Assembly (NCBI RefSeq): GCF_041435355.1
Contig: NZ_CP108442.1
Span: 1,488,001-1,552,000 of the forward strand
DNA: 64,000 bases
Source: Streptomyces sp. NBC_01276
GTDB lineage: Bacteria > Actinomycetota > Actinomycetes > Streptomycetales > Streptomycetaceae
Reading direction: 5' to 3'
A program made the translations under genes and the position numbers. This document shows positions 30,427 through 44,765 of this stretch, piece after piece (positions within the stretch are counted from its first letter, which is position 1; every line of letters begins with the position of its first letter). The notes under the pieces were generated by a model. The model saw nothing but the letters and a program-made list of their open reading frames with translations, did not search any database and was not told the origin of the DNA.

Positions 30427-30708
30427 GTGGCCGGTTACGAACCACACAAGGAAGACGTCATCAGACGCCTGCGGCGGATCGAGGGCCAGGTCCGCGGCGT
30501 GCAGCGGATGGTCGCAGAGGACGTCTACTGCATCGACGTGCTCACCCAGGTGTCCGCCGTCAACGCCGCGCTCCAGTCCTGTGCCGTGACCCTGCTCGAC
30601 GAACACCTGGGCTCGTGCGTCACCGAGGCCATCGCCGAGGGCGGGGACGCGGCGAAGGCCAAGGTGGGCGAGGCCACCCGGGCCATCGCCCGGCTGATCC
30701 GCGCATAA
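30427..30708 (+). CDS. csoR: CsoR-type copper-sensing repressor (copy 2)
   Basis: A second 93-residue CsoR, starting at GTG 30427 nine bases after copA with AGGAG overlapping the copA stop. Metal ligands are YCIDVLTQ and EHLGSCV, and there is an extra cysteine in LQSCAV. Being last in the copZ-copA operon gives negative feedback. The two CsoR copies are similar but clearly diverged. The last 138 bases of this gene are duplicated without indels at 44467-44604. Confidence 0.92.
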   Translation: MAGYEPHKEDVIRRLRRIEGQVRGVQRMVAEDVYCIDVLTQVSAVNAALQSCAVTLLDEHLGSCVTEAIAEGGDAAKAKVGEATRAIARLIRA

Positions 30709-30721
30709 ACCCGGCCGGTGC

Positions 30722-30771
30722 GCCGACCGCCCCTCCACACACGGCAGTTCGTGGAGGGGCGGTCGGCTTTT
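30722..30771 (+). terminator. Strong intrinsic terminator of the copper operon
   Basis: A perfect 17-bp stem (arms 30722-30738 and 30751-30767) with a 12-base loop is followed by TTTT, 13 bases after the csoR stop. A second copy of the stem is found at 44618-44663. Confidence 0.92.
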
Positions 30772-30813
30772 CCGTGCCCGCCCGGGGCCCGCGTAGCGGA
30801 CCCAACCCGGCTG

Positions 30814-30865
30814 CCCGACCACCCGAATTGCCCGCCATTCTGGGCCCGTGCGGGCTCAGGACCGG
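30814..30865. repeat. Duplicate of the GNAT-gene upstream region (left copy)
   Basis: These 52 bases match 46122-46173 at 49 of 52 positions. The right copy is the promoter area of the GNAT gene at 46196. Here it sits directly after the copper terminator with no gene attached, showing that this edge of the island is a recombination junction. Confidence 0.8.
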
Positions 30866-30931
30866 CATCAGGGGCGTTTCAAAGTCCCGTTGATCACGCG
30901 AGTCTGCAGGCCACAGCAGCGCGAGGGGGCT

Positions 30932-31105
30932 GGGCTAGGGGGTGTCTGACGGATATCCGCGGCGTCGCGACGCCCGGCACGCACTCTCGCCGCACCGACC
31001 GAAAGCCCAAGTACGTCCAGTACGCGGGCTTCCGGTCGGCACGCCGAGAGCACGCACCGGACGCCGCTCCTTCCCCACGGACATCCGTCAGACACCCCCT
31101 AGCCC
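30932..31105. mobile_element. MITE-like element with 28-bp inverted ends
   Basis: A 174-bp element. The terminal inverted repeats (30932-30959 and 31078-31105) agree at 27 of 28 positions and begin GGGCTAGGGGGTGTCTGACG. The interior is also largely self-complementary, so the whole element can fold as one long hairpin. It has no coding capacity. Elements with GGGTGTCTGACGGA ends are familiar as IS termini in Streptomyces (from memory). It marks the left edge of the inserted region. Confidence 0.82.
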
Positions 31106-31191
31106 ATCACGAACGCAACGAAACTCCGGTTGCACGGGGCGACCTTGCCAAGTCGCCCTGGACCAACGGAGTTTCGAGCTGCCGCCGGTCC

Positions 31192-31626
31192 GCCACCGCC
31201 TGCCTCGTCAAGTCACCCGCTCTGGATGGCGTGGCGGGACTCTCGCTGATGGAGCGGCTGCGGGTGCTGCCCGATCCGCGTCGACGGCGCGGTGTGCGTC
31301 ACCCGTTCGTGACAGTGCTGCTGCTTGCCGCGCCGGCGGTGGTCGCCGGCGCGCGCTCGTACGCGGCGATCGGCCAGTGGGCCGCGAGCGCACCGCAGCA
31401 CGCCCTGACCCGCCTCGGTGCCCGCACGGTCGGCGTGTTCGGGGTGTGTGTCGCACCGAGTGCCGCCACGATTCGACGGGGCGGCAACCTGGTCTGTCCC
31501 GGTGGCCTGGCCGACCTGACCGGCGCCGATCCCGGCGGCGCCAACTCGGTGGCCGTGGACGGCAAGGCCGCCCGCGGCTCCCGGCACGGCCAGACGCCCG
31601 CCGCCCACCTCCTTGCCCGCCTGACC
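31192..31626 (+). pseudogene. ISAs1-family transposase remnant
   Basis: Translation gives the N-terminal DDE_Tnp_1-associated region of ISAs1 transposases: LMERLRVLPDPRRRRGVRHP, AGARSYAAIGQWAA, and the start of the catalytic domain SVAVDGKAARGSR. The protein then loses similarity after HLLARLTG and the remaining two-thirds of a transposase is absent. The SEATIRR-type segment is damaged (CVAPSAATIRRGGN). It is a dead fragment, probably left by earlier rearrangement. Confidence 0.78.
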
Positions 31627-31665
31627 GGCGCTCTCACAAGATCACGGGGCTTCGCAACGGCCCTG
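31622..31665. repeat. Left copy of 44-bp direct repeat flanking the island
   Basis: It matches 44330-44373 at about 36 of 44 positions; the shared core includes TCACGGG and ends ACGGCCCTG. The two copies bracket 12.7 kb that contain the whole peptide/radical SAM gene set, suggesting recombination between scattered repeats. Confidence 0.7.
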
Positions 31666-31801
31666 CCCTGCCCTCGACCCTGCCCGTTCGGACATTGTTC
31701 GCTCAAGGACCAGGGTGGTTGCATTTGAACCCGGTTGAACAGTCAGGTAACAACTGTTCCACCGGAATCCATTTCAGAGCTAGAAACCGGAGGAATTTCT
31801 C

Positions 31802-31870
31802 ATGGTTCGTCACCACGCCGTCAGCCTGCGCCCTCGCCTCGACAAGATCCGGGTGCGCGCCGGTAAGTGA
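31802..31870 (+). CDS. 22-residue peptide gene at the head of the island operon (candidate precursor or leader peptide)
   Basis: ATG 31802 follows a near-ideal ribosome site (GGAGG at 31789-31793, eight-base spacing). The peptide begins MVRHHAVS, contains LRPRLDK, and ends IRVRAGK. It is basic (six Arg, two Lys, two His), with one Ser, one Asp and no Cys, Thr, Trp or Tyr. A 14-bp hairpin follows the stop by six bases, a layout often seen between RiPP precursors and their enzymes. An M16 peptidase and a radical SAM enzyme are encoded downstream. Alternatively it may be a regulatory leader ORF: short RHH..RxRL..RV peptides precede some actinobacterial sulfur genes, although those usually end in cysteine. 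Confidence 0.6.
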   Translation: MVRHHAVSLRPRLDKIRVRAGK

Positions 31871-31876
31871 TTGACC

Positions 31877-31909
31877 GGTGTGCCGCGGGTCCCGTACCCG
31901 CGGCACACC
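31877..31909 (+). terminator. Perfect hairpin after the peptide gene (attenuator-type)
   Basis: 14-bp perfect arms (31877-31890 and 31896-31909) enclose a CCCGT loop. No T-run follows, so it is more likely a partial terminator or mRNA stabiliser that sets a high peptide-to-enzyme ratio than a full stop. Confidence 0.72.
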
Positions 31910-31976
31910 GTCCCCAACTCGTACTGCCGGAAGTCGGAACATCGCGGCGTGAAATCGCGCCGGTAATTCAGGAGAA

Positions 31977-33218
31977 GTGGATCCGTACATGAGAGTCACT
32001 GAGGAAGGCCACGGCGTTCCGGTCCTGATCGGGGCTGATTCAGCGCGGCGTACGACGTCCCTCTGCTTCTCCATCGCGTTCGGCGGGCGGCACGACTCGC
32101 CGGAGGGCTCGGGCGCGGCCCACCTGATGGAGCACTTGCTGATGTCCGCTCCGCTGGACGGTGGCGCCTCGCTGGCCGAGCGCATCGAAGGCCTCGGCGG
32201 TGAATGCAATGCTTCCACCGGGCCCGAATCTCTCCTGTTCTTTGCCCAGGTGATGAACGAGGATGCCTGTGCCGTTGCGCAGTGGATGACGCAGGCGGTA
32301 CTCCATCCGGAAATCGACGACAAGATATTCGATTCCGAGCGCCGCGTCGTGCTTACGGAATTGGCCGCCGCAGCAGCCGACCCGAGTGACATCGTCCAGG
32401 AGAGGTTCCTCGCCGAGCTCTTCCGGGGGCACCCCCTTTCGCAGCCTTCCGGTGGCACCGAGGAGAGCGTCCGGGAATTGTCCCTGAACATTGTCGAGGA
32501 GTCGCACCGGAGGGCGACGACGACACGCCCCATGGCCTTCTCCGCAGTCGGCGGAATAGATCCGGAAGCTCTTCGCGCCACGCTCGGCAACTCGGCGCTG
32601 GCCTCGGCCGCGGTCGCACCACTGACGTCCGGCGGCCCAGTGGTCGAACCGCCTGCGCTGCCCCTCGTTTCGCAGCGGACCGACCCGTCCTGGCCCGACG
32701 AGTTCTGCTGGCTGGTTGCCGGCGGACGGGCCCCGCGGCTCGCGGACCGGGAGCGGTTCGCCTCCGTCGTGCTGGGCCATCTCCTCGGTTCGAGTGCCGC
32801 CTCCCCGCTCTACCAGCGGCTCCGCGGGGAGAACGCCCTCGCCTACATGTTCCGTTCCTGGTCCCGCAGCTACAGCGACACGGGCGCCTGGCGCTTCCTC
32901 GCCGGCGCCGAACCCGAGAACGCCCCGCGCGTCCTGGAGGAATTCCGCAGCGCCCTGTCCGAGGTCGCGAACAAGGGGCCGCTGGAGAGGTCGCTGGCCG
33001 CGGCCCGCCGGCTGGCGGTGATGGAGGCCGTGCGGGAGGCGGAGGACCCGCTGGAGCACGCGATCACCCTGGCGAACCAGCGTTGCGCGCTGCCCGGGCC
33101 GTGGGATCCGGAGCAGCACATCCAGGCGGTGCTGGCGACGACCGGCGAGGAGGTCGCCGCAGCCGCGGCCCGGCTCTCCGACGAACTCCTGGTCGTGGCA
33201 AGCCCGGAGGGAGCATGA
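31977..33218 (+). CDS. M16-family (insulinase/pitrilysin-type) metallopeptidase
   Basis: A 413-residue single-unit M16 peptidase. The inverted zinc motif HLMEH is at residues 49-53 and the distal zinc glutamate is likely Glu128 in RRVVLTELAA, so the site is complete. Length equals the bacterial processing-peptidase subunit. Start choice is open: GTG 31977 lies very close to GGAG, while ATG 31989 lies about 14 bases from it. M16 peptidases trim or release peptides in PQQ and sactipeptide-type pathways. Following the 22-residue peptide gene, leader cleavage or peptide turnover is the natural inference. No inactive partner M16 subunit is encoded nearby. Confidence 0.87.
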   Translation: MDPYMRVTEEGHGVPVLIGADSARRTTSLCFSIAFGGRHDSPEGSGAAHLMEHLLMSAPLDGGASLAERIEGLGGECNASTGPESLLFFAQVMNEDACAVAQWMTQAVLHPEIDDKIFDSERRVVLTELAAAAADPSDIVQERFLAELFRGHPLSQPSGGTEESVRELSLNIVEESHRRATTTRPMAFSAVGGIDPEALRATLGNSALASAAVAPLTSGGPVVEPPALPLVSQRTDPSWPDEFCWLVAGGRAPRLADRERFASVVLGHLLGSSAASPLYQRLRGENALAYMFRSWSRSYSDTGAWRFLAGAEPENAPRVLEEFRSALSEVANKGPLERSLAAARRLAVMEAVREAEDPLEHAITLANQRCALPGPWDPEQHIQAVLATTGEEVAAAAARLSDELLVVASPEGA

Positions 33219-34024
33219 CCTCCTTCGCTGTCGCACCTGCCTTCCTCGACGCCGTCGGCCCGGCCGGGATGCTGCTGCGGGTCCAGGGGCAGGACTGTGT
33301 CGCCGGTTCGTACCACGATCCGGTCGCCGACGAGACCCGCTGCCTCGTCGAGTACGCGGACCAGGCGCTCCTGGCCGACCTCTCTCCGCTCCTGCCGGTG
33401 CTCCGAGCACGGTACCCGGAGTGCACGAGCCTGCTGGTGCGCGTCCTGCCGGGGGGCGAGGTCGACGCGAGGCTGAGCCCGTTCCTCACCTACGTGCGGT
33501 ATGCGGCCGAGCCGGACGGGCCGGCGGCTGACGTGGCGGAGCCAACGATTCTGCGGGTGACCGAAGTCGACGACGACTGCGCCCCCCTGGTCGAGGAGTG
33601 GATGGCGCGGGCGATCAGTGACGGAGCGTCGGTCCAAGGGGGGCGGCCCGATCCTTCCGTGGCACTGGACGCGGCCCGCACGCTACTGGCCGGTGCGGAG
33701 CGCACCTCGTTCGTCGCCTGGCTGGACGGGGTGGCGATCGGCCACGCCACGGTGCGCCGCGACGGCTACGACGACCCCAGCGATACCGAGTTCCTTGAGC
33801 TCATCGACATCCTCGTCGATTCCGACGCGCACCGGTCGGCCGCCACCCGAGCACTGGTGCGGGCCTGTGCGGAACTGGCCGGGACGACCGGCCTCCCGCT
33901 GGTCGGCCACGTCAGTCACCCGCTCCCCGGCACCGGAGCGGACAGCGGAGCGCGGATCGTCGCCGGGCTGGTGAGCCAGGGTTGGCAGCCGGCCTTCGGC
34001 TACCGGCACCTATCGCTCGCCTGA
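33215..34024 (+). CDS. GNAT-like acetyltransferase with an unusual N-terminal half
   Basis: A 269-residue protein; ATG 33215 overlaps the peptidase stop (ATGA). The C-terminal half looks like a GNAT fold: FVAWLDGVAIGHATVRRDGY (beta4), ELIDILVDSDAHRSAATRALV (acetyl-CoA-binding region) and GWQPAFGYRHLSL at the end. The canonical Q/RxxGxG/A loop is replaced by SDAHRSAA, so acetyl-CoA binding is uncertain. The first 110 residues match nothing I recognise. It may acylate the peptide or its N-terminus (inference from position). Confidence 0.55.
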   Translation: MTSFAVAPAFLDAVGPAGMLLRVQGQDCVAGSYHDPVADETRCLVEYADQALLADLSPLLPVLRARYPECTSLLVRVLPGGEVDARLSPFLTYVRYAAEPDGPAADVAEPTILRVTEVDDDCAPLVEEWMARAISDGASVQGGRPDPSVALDAARTLLAGAERTSFVAWLDGVAIGHATVRRDGYDDPSDTEFLELIDILVDSDAHRSAATRALVRACAELAGTTGLPLVGHVSHPLPGTGADSGARIVAGLVSQGWQPAFGYRHLSLA

Positions 34025-34128
34025 GTTCAACGCCGCGGCCGACCAGGCCGTCCGAGCCGTGCCCCCCATGAAGCCCTGTCACATCCGAAGCTCCGTCATG
34101 CCTGATGCCACGTCACGAAGGGACGCGC

Positions 34129-35292
34129 ATGTCCGACTCTCCCCCCGCGTCGCCGCCGCCGCTCACCTTGGACCTGCTCTACACGGCGCTCGGCATGGAT
34201 CCGCAGGAGCCGCTCCGTGACCTGGTCCGGGCCGCCCGTACCCAGCGCGGCCACCTGGCCCCGCTGGTCCTCTCCGTTGCCACCGGGCAGGGCGAGGCGT
34301 TGGGCAGCGGGTCGTCGGACGAACTGCGCCGGATGCGGGTACGGACGGACGACTACCGCACCCTCGCCGCCCAGCTGACGGCCGCCGTTCCCGGAGCCCG
34401 CGTCCTCAAGGGGCCGGCGCTGGCACAGCACTACCCGCCCGCGGTCCTGCGCCCCAGCGGCGACCTCGACGTCTACCTGCCGGGCGAGTCCGCCCTGTGG
34501 CACGCCGTGCACGAGGTCTTCCGCACCCGGCCGGTGAACGACGTCGACATCACGCTCATCGGCCAGGGCGCCGGAGCGCACTGGGTCGTCGTACTGCGAT
34601 GGTCCGCGGAGGACCCGGTCCTCGACCCCGACCACCGTGTCGAACTGGTGACCTTCGCCTACCCCGAGCGCGCCGGGGCCGCGCCGATGCGGGTGCGACC
34701 CCCGCAGGACCAGGTCACCTCCGATCTGCTGGCGATCGCCGACGAGCGATTCGACCGCCCCTTCACCGTCAAGGACGTCCTCGACCTGGCCTTCACGCTC
34801 GACAGCCCGCACTGCCCGCCCCCGGAAGCACTGGTCTCGGCAGCGGACGCCTACCGGCTGGCTCCGGAACTGCTCCTGCTGAGCCAGGCGCTGCGCAGCG
34901 CCGTGGAGTTGACCAGTCCGCGGAACGAACTGCTGCTGCCGCTGCTCACCGACGCCGCCGCGCGCGAGGAGGCCGCACGCGAGGAGGCCCTGCGCAATGC
35001 CCAGCCCGCGCAAACCGCCGCCACGCCAACAGCCACAGCACAGACCGAGCCGAGCGCGCGACAGTGCCTGGAGGACGGTCGGCCGCTGTACGGCCTGCGG
35101 CTGAACCCGGACTTGGCCCCGCGAGACGGCGACGCAGTACAGCTCCGCCTCCTCGGCGACGACGTCCTGCTGCGCTGCCCCGTCGGGGACTTCCTCCTGG
35201 TGGCCTCGGAGCTGGTCGACCCCGGTACCTACGAGGCGGCGCTCGAAGCGCTCGCGGCGGAGGAGAACAACCAGGCGGTGGCACGGGCATGA
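34129..35292 (+). CDS. Nucleotidyltransferase-like protein (NTP_transf_5-like)
   Basis: The 387-residue product starts at ATG 34129 after AAGGGA. It contains RVLKGPALAQHY followed by RPSGDLDVYLP, the GDxD-type acidic pair of the minimal nucleotidyltransferase fold. The third acidic residue may lie in VNDVDITLIG or RVELVTF. This resembles the uncharacterised nucleotidyltransferase family seen near some RiPP and polysaccharide loci. The C-terminal part (from about 270) includes an Ala/Thr/Gln-rich linker and a small beta-rich domain. It might transfer a nucleotide to the peptide or another small molecule; no direct evidence. Confidence 0.6.
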   Translation: MSDSPPASPPPLTLDLLYTALGMDPQEPLRDLVRAARTQRGHLAPLVLSVATGQGEALGSGSSDELRRMRVRTDDYRTLAAQLTAAVPGARVLKGPALAQHYPPAVLRPSGDLDVYLPGESALWHAVHEVFRTRPVNDVDITLIGQGAGAHWVVVLRWSAEDPVLDPDHRVELVTFAYPERAGAAPMRVRPPQDQVTSDLLAIADERFDRPFTVKDVLDLAFTLDSPHCPPPEALVSAADAYRLAPELLLLSQALRSAVELTSPRNELLLPLLTDAAAREEAAREEALRNAQPAQTAATPTATAQTEPSARQCLEDGRPLYGLRLNPDLAPRDGDAVQLRLLGDDVLLRCPVGDFLLVASELVDPGTYEAALEALAAEENNQAVARA

Positions 35293-36239
35293 GCGCGGAC
35301 ATGCTTCAGGTCGAAGCCCTCACCCGCCGCTTCCGCAACCGCAAGGGCAACGAGGTCACCGCGCTCGACGGGGTCACCCTGCACGCACGGGAAGGAGAAG
35401 TCGTCGGTCTCCTTGGGCCCAACGGTGCCGGAAAGACGACGCTCTCACGGATCCTGACGACACTGCTGCTCCCCACCGGTGGCATCGCCCGGGTCGACGG
35501 CCTCGACGTGGTCCACGACGCACGTCAGGTGCGGGAACGCATCGGGCTGGTGCTCGGTGGCGAGCGGGGTCTGTACAATCGACTGACTGCCCGTCAGAAT
35601 CTGCGCTACTGGGGCGCGATGCAGGGACTGCCGGGAAAGGCCTGCCGCAGCCGCGCCGACCAGCTGCTGGAGCGGCTGGGCCTGAGTGCGCGTGCTGACG
35701 ACCAGATACAGACGTACTCGCGCGGCATGGTCCAGCGCGTCCACCTGGCCAGAGCCCTGCTCCGCAGCCCCCGCCTGCTGATCATGGACGAGCCGACCAG
35801 CGGCATGGACCCGCATGCCGCGCAGGGCTTCCGCGGACTCGTCGAAGAGCTCCGTGACAGTGGTTCGACCATCCTGCTCGCCACCCATGACATGCAGGAG
35901 GCGCAGTCCCTCTGCTCGCGGATCGCCCTGATCGACCACGGCCGGATCCTGCAGGAGGGGACAACCGAGGACCTCCTCCGCGCCATCGGTACAGGCCGCA
36001 CCGTGACAGCCGCCGGCGTCGCGGCGCAGCTCGCCCTGAGCATTGCAGCGATCGCCGGAGTGAGCGTCCAGGAGTCGACGCCGGACGGGCTGTTGACCCT
36101 TCGGGCCGACGGCGACGGCGCGATCGCCGCGGTGCTCCAGGCCCTCACCGCCGCCGGTGTCCACGAGCTGTCAGTGGCCGCACCCTCCCTGACCGAGGTT
36201 TACCGCACCATCATCGAGGACCGGGAGTTCGCCCTCTGA
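35289..36239 (+). CDS. ABC transporter ATP-binding protein (exporter, DrrA type)
   Basis: A 316-residue ABC ATPase with Walker A GPNGAGKTT, signature YSRGMVQRVHLARALL, Walker B LLIMDEPTSGMDP and switch histidine ATHDM. The C-terminal 80-residue extension is typical of DrrA/NatA-type exporters. ATG 35289 overlaps the upstream stop by four bases, and its own stop overlaps the first permease (TGATG). With the two permeases it probably exports the island product and gives self-protection. Confidence 0.92.
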   Translation: MSADMLQVEALTRRFRNRKGNEVTALDGVTLHAREGEVVGLLGPNGAGKTTLSRILTTLLLPTGGIARVDGLDVVHDARQVRERIGLVLGGERGLYNRLTARQNLRYWGAMQGLPGKACRSRADQLLERLGLSARADDQIQTYSRGMVQRVHLARALLRSPRLLIMDEPTSGMDPHAAQGFRGLVEELRDSGSTILLATHDMQEAQSLCSRIALIDHGRILQEGTTEDLLRAIGTGRTVTAAGVAAQLALSIAAIAGVSVQESTPDGLLTLRADGDGAIAAVLQALTAAGVHELSVAAPSLTEVYRTIIEDREFAL

Positions 36240-36994
36240 TGACTGCCTTCGTGCAACTGCAGTGGCTGCTCCTGATCCGCTCTCCGCGCCTTCTGGCCAC
36301 GCTGGTCATCGTCCCGTTCTACTCGGTCGTCTTCTTCACCACCCTGCACGGGTACGGGGCGCCCGGACTGTCGGCCACCGTGGCTCTCACCGCGTTCGTC
36401 ATGAGCATGTGGTCGCAGGCCATGTTCGTCGCGGCGGAGGTCGTGGACGATGACCGCTGGGACGGCACCCTGGAGCCGGCCCTGCTCACCCCGGACGCCT
36501 ACGTGCGCGCGCTGACGGTCAGGGTCTGCACGACCACCGCGCTGAGCCTGCCGGTGCTGGTCGAAGTGATCGCGATCGGCCGGATCGGCTTCGGTTTCGC
36601 GCTCCCCGTCCACCGGCCGCTCCTGGCGCTGACGGCCTCCCTGCTACTGGTCGTCGGCACCGCCGGCTTCGCGCTGATGGTCAGCGCGTTGATGATCCTC
36701 ATGCCTGGTGGGCGCAACCTGCGGAACGCCCTGACCTACCCGTTCTACATCCTCGGCGGGCTGATCCTGCCGGCGGCCGCGCTGCCGGTACCGGTCCGAC
36801 AACTCACCCAGCTGTTCTTCCTCTCGTACGGCGCGCAGCTGCTGCGCGCGGCGATGGCCGGATCCTCCGGGAGCCACTGGAAGGACCTCTCGCTCCTGCT
36901 GCTCCTGACCGTCCTGCAGCTGGTCGCGGGAGCGGCCCTGCTGCGCCGCGCGCTGTCGCGAGCCCGTCACGGGGAGGCCCGACTCTATGCGTAA
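36239..36994 (+). CDS. ABC-2-type permease 1
   Basis: A 251-residue membrane protein with about six helices (LATLVIVPFYSVVFFTTL; LLALTASLLLVVGTAGFALM; LLLLLTVLQLVAGAALL). The ABC-2 fold is indicated by the WDGTLEPALLTP coupling segment and the PFYILGGLILPAAALP stretch. The start overlaps the ATPase stop by one base, and the end overlaps the next permease by eight. Half of a heteromeric exporter. Confidence 0.85.
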   Translation: MTAFVQLQWLLLIRSPRLLATLVIVPFYSVVFFTTLHGYGAPGLSATVALTAFVMSMWSQAMFVAAEVVDDDRWDGTLEPALLTPDAYVRALTVRVCTTTALSLPVLVEVIAIGRIGFGFALPVHRPLLALTASLLLVVGTAGFALMVSALMILMPGGRNLRNALTYPFYILGGLILPAAALPVPVRQLTQLFFLSYGAQLLRAAMAGSSGSHWKDLSLLLLLTVLQLVAGAALLRRALSRARHGEARLYA

Positions 36995-37778
36995 GGCCGA
37001 AGCGCTGATCCGTCAGATCGGCTACGGGCTGCTGAGCAGCTATCAGGACTACCGGGCTCTCTACACCTGGCGCTCCTGGCTGTTCGGCTGGCTGGCGCGG
37101 CTGCTCTGCCAGGTGCTGTTCTTCTCCATGGTTGGCTGGGCGATCGGCTCGGCCGACACCCAGCGGTACATGGCGCTGGGCAATGCGGTGGTCCTGGGGC
37201 CCCTCGGCGCCTTCGGAGTGGTCTCCTCCAGTGTCGGCGAACGCCGTGGCGGCACCTTGCAGTTTCTGCTGCTCAGCCGCAACGGACCGTTCCCCGTGCT
37301 GCTGGCGCGCGGGCTCTACTGGGCCGCCGACGGCATCGTCACCTCCTGCATCGCCCTGTTCGTCCTGCGCTGGCTGGCGGACGTCGAAGTGAGCCCGCCC
37401 GTGCTGCTGGTCTGCTTCCTCCTCCAGGTACTGATCACCCTGAGCGGCTACAGCCTCGCGCTGGCACTGGCGGGGATCAGCCTCCGCTGGCCGGAGAGCC
37501 GGATGTACCTGACGGCCGGTACGACAATCCTGCTGATGACGCTCGCCGGGGTGAACACCCCACTCCCGCGTGGCGGAGTCGTCGGAGCGATCGCCTCCGT
37601 AGTGCCTGCCGCACACGGCCTCCAGGCGATCCGTGCGCTCGTCGCCCATGGCACGGTCCCGGCAGGCGAGGTGTTCGCGGAATTCGCAGTGCTCCTCCTC
37701 TGGGGAGCGGTGGGCTACTTGGCGCTCACCGGATCCCTTCGTCATCAGGTCCGTACCGGAACGCTCAACCTCCGCTGA
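36987..37778 (+). CDS. ABC-2-type permease 2
   Basis: A 263-residue membrane protein with about six helices. It carries the ABC-2 coupling segment ERRGGTLQFLLLSRNGPF near residue 85, matching the corresponding part of permease 1, and a final helix FAVLLLWGAVGYLALTGSL. It is the second half of the exporter, followed by an 84-base gap with short CACGGCAGCCCC repeats before the kinase-like gene. Confidence 0.85.
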   Translation: MRKAEALIRQIGYGLLSSYQDYRALYTWRSWLFGWLARLLCQVLFFSMVGWAIGSADTQRYMALGNAVVLGPLGAFGVVSSSVGERRGGTLQFLLLSRNGPFPVLLARGLYWAADGIVTSCIALFVLRWLADVEVSPPVLLVCFLLQVLITLSGYSLALALAGISLRWPESRMYLTAGTTILLMTLAGVNTPLPRGGVVGAIASVVPAAHGLQAIRALVAHGTVPAGEVFAEFAVLLLWGAVGYLALTGSLRHQVRTGTLNLR

Positions 37779-37862
37779 AGGCGCGCTGCAGCCACGCGGC
37801 AGCCCCCACGGCAGCCCCCGTTCCGGAACCGTCCGACCGTCCCCACCACGGAGAACCACCCC

Positions 37863-38642
37863 ATGAGCAGAGCGAACGTCTTGAGCCTGGTCGGCCCACC
37901 GGGGTCGGGGAAGTCCACCCAGGCGGCGCGTCTGGTCGTCGCCCTGGGCCGGTCCCGGGGAACCCCGGTGCTGTGCGCCTCGGTCCCTGCACTACTACGC
38001 GGCGACCCTGCGCTGCACGAGCGGTTGACCCGGCAGGAGGCGGCCCAGGTGGCCGCCGTACGCCGCGCCGCGCACGAGTCCGCCGACCGGGGTGCGCTGA
38101 TGCCCACGGAACTCGACGAGGTCCTGGTCGAGTTGGTGGCCAGGGCGGCCGCCGACGGGCCGGTGGTGCTGGACAGCGTGCCGCGGGGACGGCAACAGGC
38201 GCGCATCCTGCTCGCCGGCGCCGTGCCGCTTGCCGAGCTGATAGTCCTTCACCTCCAGCTTCCAGGGGACGTCCTGGCGGCCTCCCTGGAGCGCCAGATC
38301 ACCCGGGCTGCCTCCCGAGGGGAGTGGCCTCCCACGCAGCGGCAGCTCTCCCGGATGGCGGGCAAGGCGGGCGTCTATACCGACGAGACCCTCCCCGGCC
38401 TGGCCGAACTCGCCCGAGCCGGCGTCGACATGGCCCGGTTCGATGCTTCCGGCCCTGCCGACCTGGTCGCCGAGGAGATACACGCCCACCTGGTCCACCG
38501 GGGAGCCCTGCCGGCGTTCGCCGCCTCCGCTGCCGTCACCGGTGCCGTCATCCCCGCCGCCACCACCACTTCCACTCCCGCCCTCACCGCCGCCCTTGCC
38601 GGCGTCGACACGGGGCAGCCGGAGGCCGGACCGTGCAGCTGA
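37863..38642 (+). CDS. P-loop nucleotide kinase-like protein (adenylate/thymidylate kinase fold)
   Basis: The 259-residue product opens with LSLVGPPGSGKSTQAARLV, the P-loop typical of adenylate kinases. A central VVLDSVPRGRQQAR matches the adenylate-kinase GFPRxxxQA segment, with Ser-Val replacing Gly-Phe. The LID region (ITRAASRGEWPPTQ) is short. A low-complexity Ala/Thr/Ser tail (from about 210) is unlike any kinase. It probably phosphorylates a nucleotide or nucleotide-like compound. ATG 37863; the end overlaps the next gene by ten bases. Confidence 0.72.
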   Translation: MSRANVLSLVGPPGSGKSTQAARLVVALGRSRGTPVLCASVPALLRGDPALHERLTRQEAAQVAAVRRAAHESADRGALMPTELDEVLVELVARAAADGPVVLDSVPRGRQQARILLAGAVPLAELIVLHLQLPGDVLAASLERQITRAASRGEWPPTQRQLSRMAGKAGVYTDETLPGLAELARAGVDMARFDASGPADLVAEEIHAHLVHRGALPAFAASAAVTGAVIPAATTTSTPALTAALAGVDTGQPEAGPCS

Positions 38643-39235
38643 TCCTCGCCCGACACGGACGCACCGAGTCCAACGCGCTCCACCGCTTCCCCCTCTCCCC
38701 CGCCGTACCGCTGGACCGGACCGGCATCGAGCAAGCCCGGTGCACCGGGCGGCAGATCGCCGACTCCGGGTTCCACCCGACCGCCATCCACGCCAGTGAC
38801 GCGGAACGGACCCTGCAGACCGCCCGCCTCCTCCGTGATCTGATCGCCCCGGAGCTGCCGGTCACCCCGCAGCCAGGCCTGCGGGAGCTGGACTGGGGCC
38901 TGCTGCGCGGCCGTTCCACGCTCTCCGGCCCCTCGGGCGACGCCGAGTACACCCGCTGGCAGCAGGACCCGCTGCGCAGGCTCCCCGGCGGGGAGAGCCT
39001 GGCCGACGTACAGGCCCGGGCAACCCCCCTGCTGGAGCGACTGATTGCGGACGGCCGCCCGGCACTCGTGGTCTCGCACGCGGTCACCCTCACCGTCCTA
39101 ACCGCCTGGCTGCGAGGTTGGGACCTCATCGAGACATGGCAGTCCCACCGGGCCCATCTCCCGACGGGCGGATACCGCCGGCTCGAACTCACCGGCCCCC
39201 CGGGCCTGCCCCACCCCCTACCCGTGTCGCAATGA
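38633..39235 (+). CDS. Histidine phosphatase superfamily protein
   Basis: A 200-residue phosphoglycerate-mutase-like phosphatase starting at GTG 38633. The catalytic motif is LILARHGRTESNA, with the nucleophilic His; the acid is in LRELDWGLLRG; the second catalytic His is in ALVVSHAVTLTVL. Such enzymes remove phosphate from sugars, nucleotides or cofactors (compare CobC). Its overlap with the kinase-like gene suggests the two act on the same compound in sequence (inference). Confidence 0.86.
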   Translation: MQLILARHGRTESNALHRFPLSPAVPLDRTGIEQARCTGRQIADSGFHPTAIHASDAERTLQTARLLRDLIAPELPVTPQPGLRELDWGLLRGRSTLSGPSGDAEYTRWQQDPLRRLPGGESLADVQARATPLLERLIADGRPALVVSHAVTLTVLTAWLRGWDLIETWQSHRAHLPTGGYRRLELTGPPGLPHPLPVSQ

Positions 39236-39249
39236 CAGGAGCAACCCCC

Positions 39250-40185
39250 ATGGCCTATCCATCGCTGTCCCCCCTGGTTGAACAAGGTCTGCTGGACGAG
39301 ATCCTGGACAACCTGGGCTTCATCCACGCGAATGACCACTGCCGCCGCAACTGCACGCACTGCCCGGCCTTCGGCGACACCTCACCCGTGCAGATGACCC
39401 CGTTCGCGACCCTGACCCGGCTGGTCCGGGACGTCGGCGAAGCCTTCCGGGACCGGGGCATCTCCCCCAAGCGCAGCATCGTCTCCTGGCGGATCAGCGA
39501 CCCGCTCGACTACCACGTCAGGGACGGCGAGACCACGCGGAACACCTTCGACGTCGCCCGGATCTGGCGTGAACACCTGGGGCAGGGACTCTACCTGGTG
39601 ACCAACGGCAGCGAGGGAAAGCGCTTCGCCCGGACCGCGCTGCGCCAGATCGCCGCCCGGCCCGACGTGCTCTCACAGGCCAAACTGACCATCACTCCCT
39701 GCGACCAGGGCTGGGGCAGCGAGCGTTACCTGCAGAACATCGCCGATGACATCTCGGTGCTCGCGCCGCTGTGGGACCTGGGCTCGACGCGGATGGAGGA
39801 CCCCGACGGCCTGCGCTTCCGGATCAATCTGAAGTCGACGGCGGACCGGCGCGAGGAGGCACTGGAATTCATGGCCCGGGCCATGGACTTGGCCGGTCTG
39901 GACGCCGGCGCGGCGCAGAAGGCGTTGGCCGATCCGCGCCGCATCTCGGCGAAGGACATCTACGACCTCGGCTCGTACGTCGGCGACAGCCCCGTGGTGA
40001 ACGCGATCAGCATCAAGGGCGAGGGCGGCAAGCGCTTCAAGGACACCGCGCAGACCCGCTCCCACCACCAGTACGGCATCTACCCTGACGGGGCCGTCCG
40101 CGTCATTGACATGTACGAGTTCAAGGTCTACGAGGCGACCGGGGAGGGCGGCGCCCCGCTCCGGGTCGACCTGCGCGCCGCCTGA
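39250..40185 (+). CDS. Radical SAM enzyme
   Basis: A 311-residue protein with the 4Fe-4S motif CRRNCTHC (Cys31, Cys35, Cys38; CxxxCxxC). ATG 39250 follows AGGAG by eight bases. After the cluster motif the sequence is barrel-like (SWRISDPLDYH, LTITPCDQGWG, FRINLKST). There is no SPASM-type cysteine-rich C-terminus and no clear N-terminal peptide-binding (RRE) domain. This makes it smaller than most RiPP radical SAM enzymes. The reaction is unknown; it may act on the peptide, a nucleotide or a sugar. Confidence 0.83.
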   Translation: MAYPSLSPLVEQGLLDEILDNLGFIHANDHCRRNCTHCPAFGDTSPVQMTPFATLTRLVRDVGEAFRDRGISPKRSIVSWRISDPLDYHVRDGETTRNTFDVARIWREHLGQGLYLVTNGSEGKRFARTALRQIAARPDVLSQAKLTITPCDQGWGSERYLQNIADDISVLAPLWDLGSTRMEDPDGLRFRINLKSTADRREEALEFMARAMDLAGLDAGAAQKALADPRRISAKDIYDLGSYVGDSPVVNAISIKGEGGKRFKDTAQTRSHHQYGIYPDGAVRVIDMYEFKVYEATGEGGAPLRVDLRAA

Positions 40186-40276
40186 CCCGCTGTCCGACCC
40201 TGGGTCTGACCTACTGTCCGACTCAAGGTATGAGTCGCCGTCATGGCAGCCGGAAGCATCAAGGAACAGGAATCAA

Positions 40277-42316
40277 GTGAACGACATCCGAGTCGTCCCG
40301 CTGTACCGGGCCGACGAGCATCCCGTGCTGCTGACCGGCGCGAAGGCGCAGGCCCTGGCACGTCTGCACCGCGCCGGCTTCCGGGTCCCGGACGGCGTCT
40401 GCGTGACCTCGGCCTGGTTCCAGGACGTCATGTCCCGTACCGGGATCGGCGACACCGTCGAGCAGAACCTGCGGGATCTGAGCGCCGTCCCCACCGGTAC
40501 CGGCCGCGCGCTGGAACTCATCCGACGGGCCGTCATCCAGTCGCCGTGGCCGGCGGACCTGGTCGAGGAGGCAAGCGCCGCGGCGCAGTCGCTCCTCGAC
40601 CAGGGGCCCGTCATGGTGCGCTCGTCCGTACCCGTCGAGGACGGCGCAGGGCAGTCCTATGCCGGAGTGTTCCACTCCGAGGGGCCACTGCACACGGTGC
40701 CGGAGGTACTGTCCTCACTCGCCCGCTGCTGGGCGGCGCTGTACTCGGCCCGCTGCTACTCCTACTCGCGCGGCCAATTGCCGCAGGAGTACGCCGCGTT
40801 CCTGCAGACCTGGGTGCAGCCGCAGGCACACGGTGTGCTGTTCACCAAGGACCTGTTCACGAGCGACGGCGGCCCGGTCACCGACTTCGCGTGGGGCAGT
40901 GCGACCGACTCCACCTCGGGCGAGGGTCCGACGAACCGGCTCCTCCTGTCGGACGAGGCCGCGCTGCCCGACGGTCTGCCGGATGCTCTGCCCGACGGTC
41001 TGCGCGAGGAGTTGCTCTCGCTGGCCAAGCGCAGCGAACAGCTCTTCGGTCTGCCGCTCGACGTGGAGTGGGTGTGGAACGAGGGCCTGTTGCACACGCT
41101 CCAGGCCCGACCCATCACCCACGGCCGGACGCCCGCCAAGGTGACCGGCGGCTGGTGGCCGGATTCCGACGTCAGCGGCCTGTACGACGTCGACCTCGGC
41201 AACTGTCGCGCCCGTTTCGAGGGCGCGCTGCAGAAGCACATCTGGCTGCGCAGGCAGTGTGCGGCCGTCGGCGTGGAGACCTACCGCGAGGCGTACATCG
41301 TCTACGGGGAGCAGGACGTCCGCCGGCTCGCCGACGACCTGGCCGGCTACCTGCGCACCGAGTTCGTCCAGATCAACTGGGGTGGCCGCGGCACCGGAAC
41401 CGTCGCGAAGCTGGCCGACCTGGCCGACCACCTGCTGCGCGGACGCGAGCGCAACGCCCTGTCCGACCCCGCGTTCAGCGCCGCGCACATCGGCGAGATC
41501 GTCCCCGCGGAGGCCTCCGGCTTCTCCGCACTGCTCGGCGACGGAACCGTCATCGTCGAGGCTTTCCCCGCCGGCCTGCCCGGCATCAAGGAAGGCGGCC
41601 TCGTCCCGTCGGTCTTCACCATCGCCCCCGGCGGACCCATCGTCCGCGTGAACATCGCGGAATTCAGCCGTCGTTGTCACATCGAGCCCGGTGAGGGCTG
41701 GTGGTGGCGCCCCGAGGACACCGCCCCATACACCTTCGACCGTGCCGACGGCGAGGTCCTCGACATCGCCCGGATCACCCGCGACCTGTGCGGCGCCCTG
41801 GGCGAGGCCCGGCTGGAGTGGTACACCGCCGACGGCCGGGCGATGATCCGCGACGTCAGCCTTGAGGGCCGCGGTCTGGAGGCGCGCACGGCCGATGTCG
41901 GGAGGGTCATCTCCACCGGGATCGCCGCGGGCACGGTGCTCGCCCTGCCGGACCTCTCCGAACTCGACGAAGCGGCACGGGCATTGGAAGTCAGTGTGGT
42001 CGGCTTCGGCATGGACAACCCCGCAGTGCTGTCGGACGACCGCATCACCGCCGCCGTCGATGCCATCCGGCAGAAGAACGGTGTGATCGTCGTCGCCGAG
42101 TACCCCTCAGCCGGGCTCATCCCCCTGGTGGACCTCGCCTCGGGCTTCGTCTTCGAACGCGGCAATCTGCTCTGCCACACGGCCATCGTGCTGCGCGAGC
42201 GCGGCGTGCCGGCGATCGTGGCACCCGGCGCCGGGAAGTGGCTGCGTGACGGCATGAAGGTCGAGCTCTCCCCAGCGGGCCTGGCCGTCCTCGACCCCGA
42301 GGACCGGACTTGCTGA
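40277..42316 (+). CDS. PEP-synthase-like phosphotransferase (ATP-grasp plus phosphohistidine domain)
   Basis: A protein of 679 residues starting at GTG 40277. The N-terminal ATP-binding part shows VMVRSSVPVEDGAGQSYAGVF, matching the PEP synthase/pyruvate phosphate dikinase nucleotide domain. The C-terminal swivelling domain keeps the phosphohistidine in RGNLLCHTAIVLRERGVPAI. The PEP/pyruvate TIM barrel is absent; the middle (about 290-560) is different. The layout therefore resembles rifampin-phosphotransferase-type enzymes that pass the beta-phosphate of ATP to a small molecule. Phosphorylation of the island product or an intermediate is inferred. Confidence 0.8.
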   Translation: MNDIRVVPLYRADEHPVLLTGAKAQALARLHRAGFRVPDGVCVTSAWFQDVMSRTGIGDTVEQNLRDLSAVPTGTGRALELIRRAVIQSPWPADLVEEASAAAQSLLDQGPVMVRSSVPVEDGAGQSYAGVFHSEGPLHTVPEVLSSLARCWAALYSARCYSYSRGQLPQEYAAFLQTWVQPQAHGVLFTKDLFTSDGGPVTDFAWGSATDSTSGEGPTNRLLLSDEAALPDGLPDALPDGLREELLSLAKRSEQLFGLPLDVEWVWNEGLLHTLQARPITHGRTPAKVTGGWWPDSDVSGLYDVDLGNCRARFEGALQKHIWLRRQCAAVGVETYREAYIVYGEQDVRRLADDLAGYLRTEFVQINWGGRGTGTVAKLADLADHLLRGRERNALSDPAFSAAHIGEIVPAEASGFSALLGDGTVIVEAFPAGLPGIKEGGLVPSVFTIAPGGPIVRVNIAEFSRRCHIEPGEGWWWRPEDTAPYTFDRADGEVLDIARITRDLCGALGEARLEWYTADGRAMIRDVSLEGRGLEARTADVGRVISTGIAAGTVLALPDLSELDEAARALEVSVVGFGMDNPAVLSDDRITAAVDAIRQKNGVIVVAEYPSAGLIPLVDLASGFVFERGNLLCHTAIVLRERGVPAIVAPGAGKWLRDGMKVELSPAGLAVLDPEDRTC

Positions 42317-42329
42317 AGGGCGAGCACCG

Positions 42330-43817
42330 GTGAACGCGCTACAGGTCGGCCTGTGTCCCCTCGACCTCACCGACGAACGGCACGTGCGGCGCCTTCTCTG
42401 CGACGACTCCCGGGGAAGCGCGGCAGGCAGTCGGCTGCTGACCCGCCCGGACTTCGTGCCGGACGGCTTCACCGTCGCCGAGCGGATGACGGGGCAGGTC
42501 CTGCTGCACCCCTCTGAGCGCGCGTTCGACCCCTGGCTTTCCCGGCTGATCGCGGACAAGCTGGCCCGGATCGCCGCCCCGGCAGGGCGCAGCGCCGTCA
42601 CTGACCCGGCGGTTGCCGCGTTCTGCCGGGACCAGACGCTTCGACTGCTGGACCACACCTGGGAGGAATCGCCCGCGACACGATCCGCGAGCGACTCTCC
42701 GGCCAACTCGCTGAGCAACCAGGAACTGCCGTCCGTAGTGGACCGGGTGATCGCCCACTGCGTGCTCGGTGATGTCCGCGCGCCGGTCGCCACCCACCTG
42801 CGGTACGCCGATCGCGGGGTGAGCGTCGCCGTGGCGCTCGCCCCGCTCGTCCTGGAGCGGTGCGGAACCGACCTGTCGCGCCTGCTGCGGTACAGCCTGG
42901 CGGCCGGCCTGCTCGGGGCGGAGCAGAAAGCACGTGCGCCCGGCCCGGGCGCGCGCCTGCCCATCGACGCGTCGGCCACTCCCGTGGCCACCGCGCGGAA
43001 GCTGTGGCCCAGGTACCGGGCGCTGGCCGAACGGCCCCTCCAGGTGGACCACTGGGCGGAGTTCGCGAGCGAGGTACTCGACGGTCCGAGACGGCTTGTG
43101 TGGTTCTTCGACGACTGCGCCGAGACGGTGATCGACCTCCTCCTGCTCACCCGCTTGAAGGAAGCCAACCCCCAGCTGGAAATCACCATGGTGCCCAAGT
43201 CCCTGCCCTGCTACACGGACGCCGACACCGGCCTGCTGCTCCGGCTGCTCGCCACTCCCAGCCTGCAGGCGCTGGGCGTAGGAGGGGCGCTGCAGGCCTC
43301 GGACGTCTGCCGCTTCGGCCCGACCATGGCCACGGCCAACCTGCGCAAGCTCTCCCCCGAACTGGCCGGGCAACTGGACGCGGCGGACTGCGTCTTCGTG
43401 AAGGGCACCAACATCCACGAGATGTTCCAGGGCGGGATCGACAGGCCGATGTACACCGGGTTCGTCCTGGTGAGCGAGTTCAACGAGAGTGCGATGGGGG
43501 TGGACGCCTCGTCCGCCCCCCTCTTCCTCGTCCACTCCGGGCCCGGCGAGTACGCCCACTGGGGCTTCGAAGGACGCGAATCCCGTACCGTCCGGTACTC
43601 GGACCAGCGCCTCGTCCGGCTTTGCTGGAGTACCTTGACGGACCATCAGTTCAGAAAGAACTGCGACGACCCCGCCGTACTGCGCGAGGAGCTACGCCGG
43701 CTGGACTCCCTCACCGAACGCGTGCTGCCCAGGACCCGCCCCGCACTCGACGGCGAAAAGGCACTCGTCCACCAGGCACTGCGGCGCGTCACCGGCAGCG
43801 CCCCGCGAATCCCGTGA
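42330..43817 (+). CDS. DUF89/ARMT1-like damage-control phosphatase homologue
   Basis: The product is 495 residues (GTG 42330). Around residue 258 it reads VWFFDDCAETVIDLLLL, similar to the DNAGE-type metal site of DUF89 phosphatases. Further on ADCVFVKGTNIHEMFQGG resembles the second DUF89 metal/phosphate motif (D..SKGQ.N.E). These enzymes hydrolyse phosphate esters on damaged metabolites. The N-terminal 200 residues are helical and unassigned. The assignment rests on two motifs and is moderate. It overlaps the MazG-like gene by four bases. Confidence 0.6.
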   Translation: MNALQVGLCPLDLTDERHVRRLLCDDSRGSAAGSRLLTRPDFVPDGFTVAERMTGQVLLHPSERAFDPWLSRLIADKLARIAAPAGRSAVTDPAVAAFCRDQTLRLLDHTWEESPATRSASDSPANSLSNQELPSVVDRVIAHCVLGDVRAPVATHLRYADRGVSVAVALAPLVLERCGTDLSRLLRYSLAAGLLGAEQKARAPGPGARLPIDASATPVATARKLWPRYRALAERPLQVDHWAEFASEVLDGPRRLVWFFDDCAETVIDLLLLTRLKEANPQLEITMVPKSLPCYTDADTGLLLRLLATPSLQALGVGGALQASDVCRFGPTMATANLRKLSPELAGQLDAADCVFVKGTNIHEMFQGGIDRPMYTGFVLVSEFNESAMGVDASSAPLFLVHSGPGEYAHWGFEGRESRTVRYSDQRLVRLCWSTLTDHQFRKNCDDPAVLREELRRLDSLTERVLPRTRPALDGEKALVHQALRRVTGSAPRIP

Positions 43818-44233
43818 CCGACACCAGTGGAGCAGACGTGCACGACCCCCGAAACGACCTGCACGACCCCCGAAACGACCTGCACGATTCCCGGAACGAC
43901 CTGCACCATTCCCGGAACGACTGGCTCGACGACCTGGCGGCCCTGACCGCCGGAGCCGTCGAACGCTTCCCGCGCCACAACGACGCCTTCCACCTGGTCT
44001 CCCGCCTGGCCGAAGAGGCCGGTGAACTGGCCCAACAGGTCAACCACATGGAGGGCATGGGCCGCAAACGCGAAGCCCACGGCGAGCCTGACCCCGACCA
44101 CCTCACCAAGGAGGTCCTCGACGTTGTCCGCTGCGCCGTCGCCATTGCCGCCCACTACGGCTGCCTGGCCAACCTCCGCACCCTCACGTCGGCGAAGCTG
44201 GACTCCTATCGCCGCGAAGGGTGGGCGCGCTGA
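43814..44233 (+). CDS. MazG-like nucleotide pyrophosphohydrolase
   Basis: A 139-residue protein starting at GTG 43814 (GTGA overlap). The all-alpha NTP pyrophosphatase core is SRLAEEAGELAQQVNHMEG followed by KEVLDVVRCAVAIAAHY (EExxE...ExxD metal motifs). The N-terminus holds four tandem heptapeptides of the type HDPRNDL, which are not part of the fold. Members hydrolyse NTPs to NMP and pyrophosphate. It closes the island operon and adds to the concentration of nucleotide and phosphate enzymes. Confidence 0.8.
   Translation: MTDTSGADVHDPRNDLHDPRNDLHDSRNDLHHSRNDWLDDLAALTAGAVERFPRHNDAFHLVSRLAEEAGELAQQVNHMEGMGRKREAHGEPDPDHLTKEVLDVVRCAVAIAAHYGCLANLRTLTSAKLDSYRREGWAR
43841..43924 (+). repeat. Four 21-bp tandem repeats inside the MazG-like gene
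   Basis: Units at 43841, 43862, 43883 and 43904 encode HDPRNDL, HDPRNDL, HDSRNDL and HHSRNDW. The first two are identical at base level, so the expansion is recent. Confidence 0.9.
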
Positions 44234-44329
44234 CCGTCGGTCCTCCGCCTGACCGCTCATCGCCGTGCCGTCAGTGCCGGTCCGCGGAATCGCTCCCTGG
44301 CCCTGGCAGCGTTCAGGCCGAATCGGTCC

Positions 44330-44373
44330 TGACCAGCACGCTCACGAGGTCACGGGACTTTGCGACGGCCCTG
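44330..44373. repeat. Right copy of 44-bp direct repeat flanking the island
   Basis: Partner of 31622-31665, with about eight mismatches. It immediately follows the island operon and precedes the rearranged chromosomal fragments, so it marks the right limit of the inserted segment. Confidence 0.7.
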
Positions 44374-44376
44374 GTT

Positions 44377-44463
44377 CCGGTACGGCGAGATCGGGCGGGC
44401 TCCCCGTCGCCGGCCAGGCGGCAACAGCCTGCGGCTGCGCGGCTTCCGGGCCGCCGCAACTGA
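44377..44463. other. Rearrangement scar made of GNAT-gene and copA fragments
   Basis: Three pieces are joined end to end. 44377-44390 matches 46170-46183 (GNAT leader). 44391-44417 is identical to 46439-46465 (inside the GNAT gene). About 44420-44463 matches the last 45 bases of copA (30373-30417) with one substitution and one deleted base. The pieces are non-functional and show repeated short-homology recombination. Confidence 0.85.
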
Positions 44464-44466
44464 TGG

Positions 44467-44604
44467 CTCCAGTCCTGTGCCGTGACCCTGCTCGACGGGC
44501 ACCTGGGCTCCTGCGCCACCGAGGCCATCGCCGAGGGCGGGGACGCGGCGAAGGCCAAGGTGGACGAGGCCATCCGGGCCGTCGCCCGGCTGATCCGCGC
44601 ATAA
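44467..44604 (+). pseudogene. Truncated csoR, 3' half duplicate
   Basis: 138 bases match 30571-30708 without indels and translate as the C-terminal half of CsoR (LQSCAVTLLDGHLGSC to the stop). The start and DNA-binding half are missing, so it cannot be a working repressor. Confidence 0.9.
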
Positions 44605-44617
44605 ACCCGGCCGGTAC

Positions 44618-44663
44618 GCCGACCGCCCCTCCACACGAAGCGGTTCGTGGAGGGGCGGTCGGC
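44618..44663 (+). terminator. Second copy of the copper-operon terminator
   Basis: The same 17-bp stem as at 30722-30767 (arms 44618-44634 and 44647-44663), followed by CTTT. It should insulate blaI from island transcription. Confidence 0.88.
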
Positions 44664-44765
44664 CTTTCCGTGCCCGCCCGGGGCCCGCGTACCGGGCCGG
44701 GGTATGCCACCGGTGCCGGGGCGGCCCGTACGATGAGCCGCTCGCGAGGGGGAAGGCGGAAAGCG

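Follow-up and report, generated by a model that had tools for sequence, protein, structure and literature searches.

We analysed a window of 64,000 nucleotides from Streptomyces sp. NBC_01276 (G000:C1:1488001-1552000), in which a rightward run of 12 genes extending to position 44233 lies downstream of a 22-codon open reading frame (ORF). We consider it probable, at roughly 0.68, that the peptide encoded by this ORF, MVRHHAVSLRPRLDKIRVRAGK (22 residues, 31802-31870), is the ribosomal precursor of an apparently undescribed natural-product family of the ribosomally synthesized and post-translationally modified peptide (RiPP) type. This reading is supported by the conservation of the peptide, the constant company that it keeps, the modular nature of the accessory genes around it, and conserved catalytic-type residues in an M16 peptidase, a nucleotidyltransferase and a radical S-adenosylmethionine (SAM) protein. 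The peptide is conserved at 16 further loci, one of them a contig-end partial, and its gene is the conserved centre of what is apparently an undescribed cluster family. The operon genes, the ribosome site, the hairpin and the repeat copies located below are on the + strand of the window.

A sequence-only reading of this DNA had singled out the small ORF for its ideal ribosome site, and both are confirmed, with GGAGGA at 31789-31794 separated from the ATG by a 7-base spacer. H, P, R, L and K are invariant across the 16 complete peptides, and an acidic position is divided between D and E in the ratio 14 to 2. Synonymous changes have occurred at the fixed P, R and L, for which three, three and two codons are used, with one each for H and K. 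The peptide gene adjoins an M16 gene, directly upstream of it, at 16 of the 17 loci (one M16 being truncated). The C-termini of the peptides vary among loci (K, R, N, A and T). No Tyr and no Cys occurs in the 16 peptides, and there is no conserved Glu-Tyr pair in the alignment.

Searches for DNA encoding LRPRLDK in 199 Streptomyces genomes gave 10 matches including the window's own. Eight of the other nine were small ORFs that have a ribosome site and lie in clusters containing core genes; M16 follows directly downstream in seven of them (truncated in G797) and lies 6.4 kb from the peptide on the opposite strand in G741; the ninth, in G711, was a chance match inside a 957-aa ORF. A motif-free search, using a profile of nine GNAT proteins against 45 of 70 genomes of another genus, matched five genomes, and all five have a peptide directly upstream of M16 (MSRNHKVGLRPRLDKIKTGR, MVRNHKVGLRPRLDKVNVRAGK, MERNHKVSLRPRLEKITIKSGT, MTRNHVALVSPRLEKVITKKA and a contig-end partial, ...LDKAGQGK). 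The peptide is found, more often than chance would give, at all eight loci located through enzymes alone, three by the radical SAM or DUF89 protein and five by GNAT; for comparison, an ATG ORF of 18-26 codons with a ribosome site was present at most 260 nt upstream of 18 of the 501 genes called in these contexts, a count that takes in the peptide genes ahead of M16. The seven full peptides found without the motif comprise five with LRPRLDK, one with LRPRLEK and one with VSPRLEK. The proposed tie between peptide and enzymes holds, in that the peptide is conserved at the protein level with synonymous changes and is present at 8/8 loci found without it. Two refuting results, enzyme sets devoid of the peptide and a lack of conservation in the peptide itself, were looked for, and neither was found.

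Locus gene content was taken from simple gene calls, and the flanking genes named below are candidate members of their clusters. The constant partners of the peptide are the M16 peptidase, the GNAT acetyltransferase-like protein, the nucleotidyltransferase (NT5) and the exporter. The full core, comprising M16, GNAT, NT5, an ATP-binding cassette (ABC) ATPase and two permeases, is present at 14 of the 17 loci, namely the window, S. flavofungini, Streptomyces sp. L-9-10, G837, G048, G737, G683, G741, G783, G782, G143, G049, G173 and G171. GNAT and NT5 lie within a single 646-aa ORF in G783, NT5 is at the contig edge in G782, and G207 has five of the six core genes before the end of its 5.2-kb contig. 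The window operon consists of this core and a six-gene cassette which occurs at 4/17 loci. None of the cassette genes was detected by tblastn at the eight motif-found loci (E 1e-5, around 20 kb on each side where the contig allows) or at the five GNAT-found loci (E 1e-4), and the cassette enzymes are ruled out as a family-defining set. Hence the combination of RiPP-like parts with phosphate and nucleotide enzymes that had been noticed is there, but the kinase, phosphatase, radical SAM, phosphoenolpyruvate (PEP)-synthase-like, DUF89 and MazG genes are accessory. Likewise, of the suggested pairing of the peptide with M16 and radical SAM genes, the M16 part stood at 16/17 loci while the window-type radical SAM cassette was confined to 4/17.

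Within the window the core begins with the M16 peptidase (31977-33218; Pfam PF00675 and PF05193), whose HxxEH is intact in an eight-member alignment. It is followed by the GNAT-like protein (33215-34024; PF00583 at 25.5 bits against a cut-off of 20.7, and alignment), NT5 (34129-35292), a DrrA-like ABC transporter ATPase (35289-36239; PF00005, with TIGR01188 below its cut-off) and two ABC-2 permeases (36239-36994 and 36987-37778; both PF01061). The cassette then comprises an adenylate-kinase-like P-loop kinase (37863-38642; NCBIfam adenylate kinase E 1.6e-10, below cut-off), a histidine phosphatase (38633-39235; PF00300, E 2.6e-35), the radical SAM protein (39250-40185), a PEP-synthase-like ATP-grasp/phosphohistidine enzyme of the PPDK_N/PEP-utilizer kind (40277-42316; PF01326 and PF00391), an ARMT1/DUF89 damage-control-phosphatase-like protein (42330-43817; PF01937 at 43.4 bits against 25) and a MazG-like pyrophosphohydrolase (43838-44233, alternative start 43814; PF03819 at 17.9 against a cut-off of 22). 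The genes mainly overlap or nearly touch, the remaining gaps being 106 nt (peptide to M16), 104, 84 and 91 nt. The earlier count of twelve genes, all rightward, is correct, although the GNAT gene was absent from its list. An anti-phage defence system was ruled out, as 0/9 window proteins matched in PADLOC at E 0.001, the ABC genes not being among the nine.

NT5 carries invariant D112 and D114 in the alignment and scores 28.2 bits for NTP_transf_5 (PF14907) against a Pfam cut-off of 31.2; structural matching of its AlphaFold2 (AF2) model assigns it a MenT/ANT fold. A RiPP recognition element (RRE) had been suspected by eye in its C-terminus, where the model has four strands and one long helix, unlike an RRE, and by this informal comparison the candidate appears unlikely. 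The radical SAM protein has no Pfam or NCBIfam match, but its CxRxCxHC is kept in 19/19 aligned relatives and its model is predicted confidently to adopt a radical-SAM fold. Its structural neighbours EpeE, SuiB, SkfB, viperin, BtrN and BlsE fall within about 2 Z units of each other, so that a peptide and a nucleotide substrate are not told apart. The sole match of the radical SAM protein among sequences in the PDB (DcsG, E 0.12) and the two matches of the GNAT profile (E 0.06 and 0.08) are too weak to use.

The operon as a whole has relatives elsewhere. Window positions 31604-43879 share 99.0% identity with Streptomyces lavendulae subsp. lavendulae CCM 3239. A scan of genome contigs for the radical SAM protein returned this near-identical locus (L001) together with S. 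flavofungini (L002) and Streptomyces sp. L-9-10 (L003), and a DUF89 search of 392 genomes of the genus Streptomyces matched the window's own genome and G837. The three independent loci (S. flavofungini, L-9-10 and G837) have all 12 genes in the window order, with the peptides MAKHASILRPRLDKVKPQDR, MAKHAALLRPRLDKVKPQGR and MAKHAAALRPRLDKVKPKDN just upstream of M16. Between the window and these relatives the three most divergent products are the peptide (45% identity), M16 (41-44%) and GNAT (34-36%), the other genes being 58-85% identical; peptide, M16 and GNAT have diverged together.

Relatives of the cassette enzymes reach further. Searches that scored only candidates sharing most words gave 12 relatives of DUF89 and 38 of the PEP-synthase part, 13 of the latter with E below 1e-40; those with names belong to Streptomyces, Kitasatospora, Pilimelia and one Micromonospora. 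Several lie on equal-sized contigs, also with radical SAM relatives, for example an 18,470-base Pilimelia contig. For the radical SAM protein the window's own genome was the sole match among 394 genomes of the family and 296 of the class, and no relative was found in 341 genomes of family f17, in plasmids or among 24 stretches of viral contigs that fit the pattern. The DUF89 relative P0056 was found in its own genome only among 61 relatives, and not in 70 genomes of genus g14. Most of the radical SAM relatives at 39-55% identity (P0007-P0043) are on metagenome contigs from which DUF89 and PEP-synthase relatives were not retrieved, and the radical SAM enzyme may serve other pathways as well. 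In P0045 and P0046 (Streptomyces) a BTAD/SARP-type regulator is fused to the final third of a radical SAM sequence of this kind, as if the intervening cluster had been deleted in those strains.

At the other loci the accessory genes differ from cluster to cluster. Pfam matches identify aminotransferase III, HAD plus uridine-kinase-like and methionyl-tRNA synthetase (MetRS)-like proteins in G048, AdoHcyase, aminotransferase III and Cupin_5 in G741, a B12-binding radical SAM protein in G783 and a thymidylate-kinase-like protein in G797. The accessory genes of G750 encode radical SAM, Acetyltransf_6, EPSP/MurA-like, aminotransferase and JmjC_2 proteins; G683 has JmjC_2, thymidylate-kinase-like, AICARFT and radical SAM proteins; G143 has a thymidylate-kinase-like protein, NUDIX, a tyrosine phosphatase and two glycosyltransferases; and G171 has EPSP/MurA-like, tyrosine phosphatase, FemAB-like and 2-oxoglutarate oxygenase proteins. 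A second recurring accessory cassette is found near the peptide in both G750 and G171 (L035 and L059), although they belong to separate genera: it consists of MurA/EPSP-like, aminotransferase, P-loop kinase, tyrosine phosphatase-like, HprK-like and acyltransferase genes. Seven other loci (L-9-10, G837, G048, G782, G797, G750 and G783) contain strong matches to the S. flavofungini SARP-type regulator.

G049 contains YcaO, TfuA, GTP cyclohydrolase II, an AMP-binding enzyme and prolyl-tRNA synthetase (ProRS). Its TfuA, its YcaO and a 577-aa protein with no Pfam match are divergent from the LRPRLDK peptide (L053:12861-17028), and G049 is a possible thioamidated or otherwise backbone-modified member. 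The ProRS near this peptide (L053:11078-12790) matches a further sequence elsewhere in its own genome, and near the G048 peptide is a divergent MetRS-like protein (L026:2548-4119); these aminoacyl-tRNA synthetase paralogues are possible self-resistance genes.

One accessory gene follows the peptide sequence. JmjC_2 is present exactly at S. flavofungini, G683, G750 and G782, the loci whose peptides have HASI-LRPRLDK and the tail KPQ[DS]R, and at 0/12 other loci with a full peptide; the probability of this match by chance is 0.0005 for an association noticed post hoc, with kinship ignored and the partial G207 peptide left out. L-9-10 and G837 share high identity and the same operon with S. flavofungini, yet have neither JmjC_2 nor the HASI peptide. 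HprK-like proteins, identified by similarity in G750, G782, G171 and G173 (two were checked by NCBIfam, both below cut-off), occur only with Ser-containing peptides (4/4), but four other Ser-containing peptides have no such kinase and the correlation was not used.

Collectively, these results favour a model in which the M16 peptidase would trim the peptide, NT5 and GNAT would act on the peptide or on the released product (as modification, capping or self-protection), and the three-gene ABC system would export the product. The variable enzymes would give each cluster its chemistry, and the window cassette, judged by its families, may handle a phosphorylated, perhaps nucleotide-like, group, while the hairpin after the peptide gene could allow the peptide to be made in excess. 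The association of JmjC with peptide sequence and the presence of YcaO-TfuA beside the G049 peptide are taken as indirect evidence that the peptide is a substrate, as is the retention of HxxEH and further charged residues in 8/8 aligned M16 proteins. A short and conserved gene for a precursor that keeps company with modifying enzymes (8/8 loci) and, judging from the gene, a maturing-type peptidase next to it (16/17 loci) are what would be expected of a RiPP in the broad sense, and M16 peptidases are reported to mature known RiPPs (PMC10885120 and PMC8068269). We infer that the peptide is translated and is a substrate, and likewise its modified residue, the roles of GNAT and NT5, and the order of the steps; the result may be a phosphorylated or nucleotidylated peptide or a phosphoryl or nucleotidyl conjugate. 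More tentatively, and with the odds clearly against it, the family might consist of ribosomal peptide conjugates in which NT5 couples a cluster-specific phosphorylated small molecule (a nucleotide or sugar-phosphate analogue) to the LRPRLDK peptide; the products would be Trojan-horse peptidyl (nucleo)phosphates. Some members would then target an aminoacyl-tRNA synthetase, with the G048 MetRS-like protein and the second G049 ProRS protecting against it, and in the window the group would be altered by the radical SAM protein and phosphorylated by the PEP-synthase-like enzyme.

Several observations weigh against a RiPP precursor. The peptide is conserved almost end to end with no evident boundary between leader and core, so that the alignment recommended earlier revealed conserved residues but, with nearly the whole peptide constant, no delimited core. 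The peptide ends vary without pattern outside the JmjC group, and the window-type cassette tracks no peptide residue. Of the core, M16 and GNAT alone are near the peptide in G750, and in G797 the truncated M16 alone. Eight of the 17 loci were found by the motif, so LRPRLDK is fixed there by design, and a reversed-pattern control of the LRPRLDK search also gave many matches. No RRE or PqqD Pfam match was obtained in the 12 window proteins, where a divergent RRE is still possible.

The near-constant peptide set against wholly changing chemistry enzymes is more in keeping with a carrier than with the variable core of a classical precursor. It is conceivable, if rather unlikely, that the peptide is a scaffold on which accessory enzymes build a small molecule that M16 then frees, leaving a product with little or no peptide. 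Pearlins and amino-group carrier proteins offer parallels, but the window shows no sign of a peptide-elongating ligase, a pearlin-type enzyme or a carrier C-terminus, the C-termini differ, and JmjC presence follows peptide sequence. The same JmjC association, with YcaO-TfuA beside the G049 peptide, speaks against a largely unmodified or lightly processed Arg/Pro-type antimicrobial peptide that is cut by M16 and exported by the ABC system among unrelated small-molecule pathways. Such a peptide would fit the basic character of the sequence, the constancy of M16 as its closest neighbour and the free exchange of accessory genes, but would leave the constant GNAT and nucleotidyltransferase unexplained, and we regard it as very improbable. 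A pathway like that for pyrroloquinoline quinone (PQQ), in which two peptide residues are cross-linked and excised, is scarcely credible: radical SAM and M16 do share an operon with a peptide of PqqA size, but there is no conserved Glu-Tyr pair, radical SAM is accessory (4/17 loci), and the exporter and SARP-type regulators suggest secondary metabolism.

The sequence-only reading had also allowed that the peptide might be merely a leader ORF, on which translation stalled by a drug or a shortage would control the downstream genes by attenuation. A small ORF with an ideal ribosome site and a hairpin after its stop would suit such a role, and its R-P-R and L-D-K may be reminiscent of macrolide-arrest motifs. 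In the window the hairpin lies directly 3' of the peptide stop (31873-31912, by folding) and has no T-run. A hairpin follows the peptide at 17/17 loci, with a mean of -36.6 kcal/mol over 60 nt compared with -22.4 kcal/mol after 508 called genes (p 3e-9), and, locus by locus, the share of controls exceeding the observed energy ranges from 0.2 to 21%. However, the G741 peptide gene is solitary: M16 is 6.4 kb away, a long stem and T-run form a terminator of its own, and the next gene faces it, which makes a leader ORF unlikely. G171 also has a stem with a T-run after the peptide, and gene order differs among the clusters that this peptide heads. A search of 30500-44600 against Rfam gave no match, and a known RNA element was rejected. 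A simple leader ORF was rejected on G741; elsewhere position alone would allow an attenuator, and overall we consider this explanation improbable. The RiPP-type precursor is retained as our preferred reading.

The operon has likely been inserted recently at its present site. Two copies of a 233-bp direct repeat, 94% identical by sequence comparison, bracket it (30570-30802 and 44466-44698), the left copy spanning the end of a metal-repressor-like gene (30427-30708). GC content is 0.695-0.717 in 2-kb steps over 32000-43999, compared with 0.72-0.755 for the majority of the flanking steps. Immediately before the peptide ORF, around 31213-31728, is a remnant resembling, by eye, the N-terminal part of an insertion sequence transposase; its place upstream of the peptide is taken by a SARP-type regulator in S. 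flavofungini, L-9-10 and G837.

If the RiPP-type reading is true, these clusters would constitute a modular class of RiPP-like systems for which genomes can be searched by a simple signature: around 20 residues of peptide with H-x3-LRPRL[DE]K, adjoining an M16 and a GNAT of this kind. The family is not rare, being present in 8/198 other Streptomyces genomes by exact motif and in 5/45 genomes of another genus by GNAT profile, and ORFs as short as the peptide gene are easily missed by gene callers. We found no description of the peptide family, and no motif strings, in main texts of the literature, supplements and most subscription papers lying outside the scope of that search. Since the same peptide is combined with different chemistry in each cluster, one working system could open the way to many unseen metabolites and could reveal the way in which phosphate, nucleotide or sugar chemistry is brought together with a ribosomal peptide.

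The assertion that the cluster fits no known RiPP class was borne out for the classes compared (PQQ, lanthipeptide, lasso, microcin C and YcaO). PQQ biosynthesis employs PqqA, of around 22 residues, with PqqE and PqqF, and the window resembles it in having a peptide of that length, a radical SAM protein and an M16 peptidase in one operon. It differs in having neither the Glu/Tyr pair nor a PqqD match, in the restriction of radical SAM to 4/17 loci, and in the extra nucleotidyltransferase, GNAT and exporter. Microcin C is made from a 7-mer with a fixed C-terminal Asn by a ThiF-type adenylating enzyme. The concept of a nucleotide attached to a short peptide of ribosomal origin, the GNAT and the exporter are common to both, and aminoacyl-tRNA synthetase paralogues at two related loci add a partial likeness; in contrast, the window has no ThiF-type match, NT5 has a MenT/ANT fold, and the peptide is not a 7-mer and has varied C-termini. 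In pheganomycin a small molecule is joined to a ribosomal peptide in Streptomyces by a peptide ligase of another ATP-grasp kind, and we know of no M16-GNAT-NT5 core there.

Class III and class V lanthipeptides are reported to be matured by M16 peptidases (PMC10885120, PMC8068269 and PMC7794033). They share with the window family an M16 encoded next to a ribosomal precursor, in clusters of actinobacteria or bacilli, and ABC transporters in class V, but the 16 peptides contain no Cys and the window has no lanthipeptide synthase Pfam match. For the phosphorylated lasso peptide pseudomycoidin, a kinase, PsmK, and a nucleotidyltransferase homologue, PsmN, are reported (PMC9266682). The resemblance lies in a kinase and a nucleotidyltransferase homologue acting on a ribosomal peptide, with HprK-like kinases at G750, G782, G171 and G173. 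The window kinase is of the adenylate-kinase type, however, no lasso B (protease) or C (asparagine-synthase-like) Pfam match occurs in the window, and the peptide is too short and not lasso-like. No YcaO Pfam match occurs in the window either; YcaO and TfuA, described for thioamidated peptides (PMC6511847), stand beside the G049 peptide, and it is at that locus only that the family resembles thioamidated peptides.

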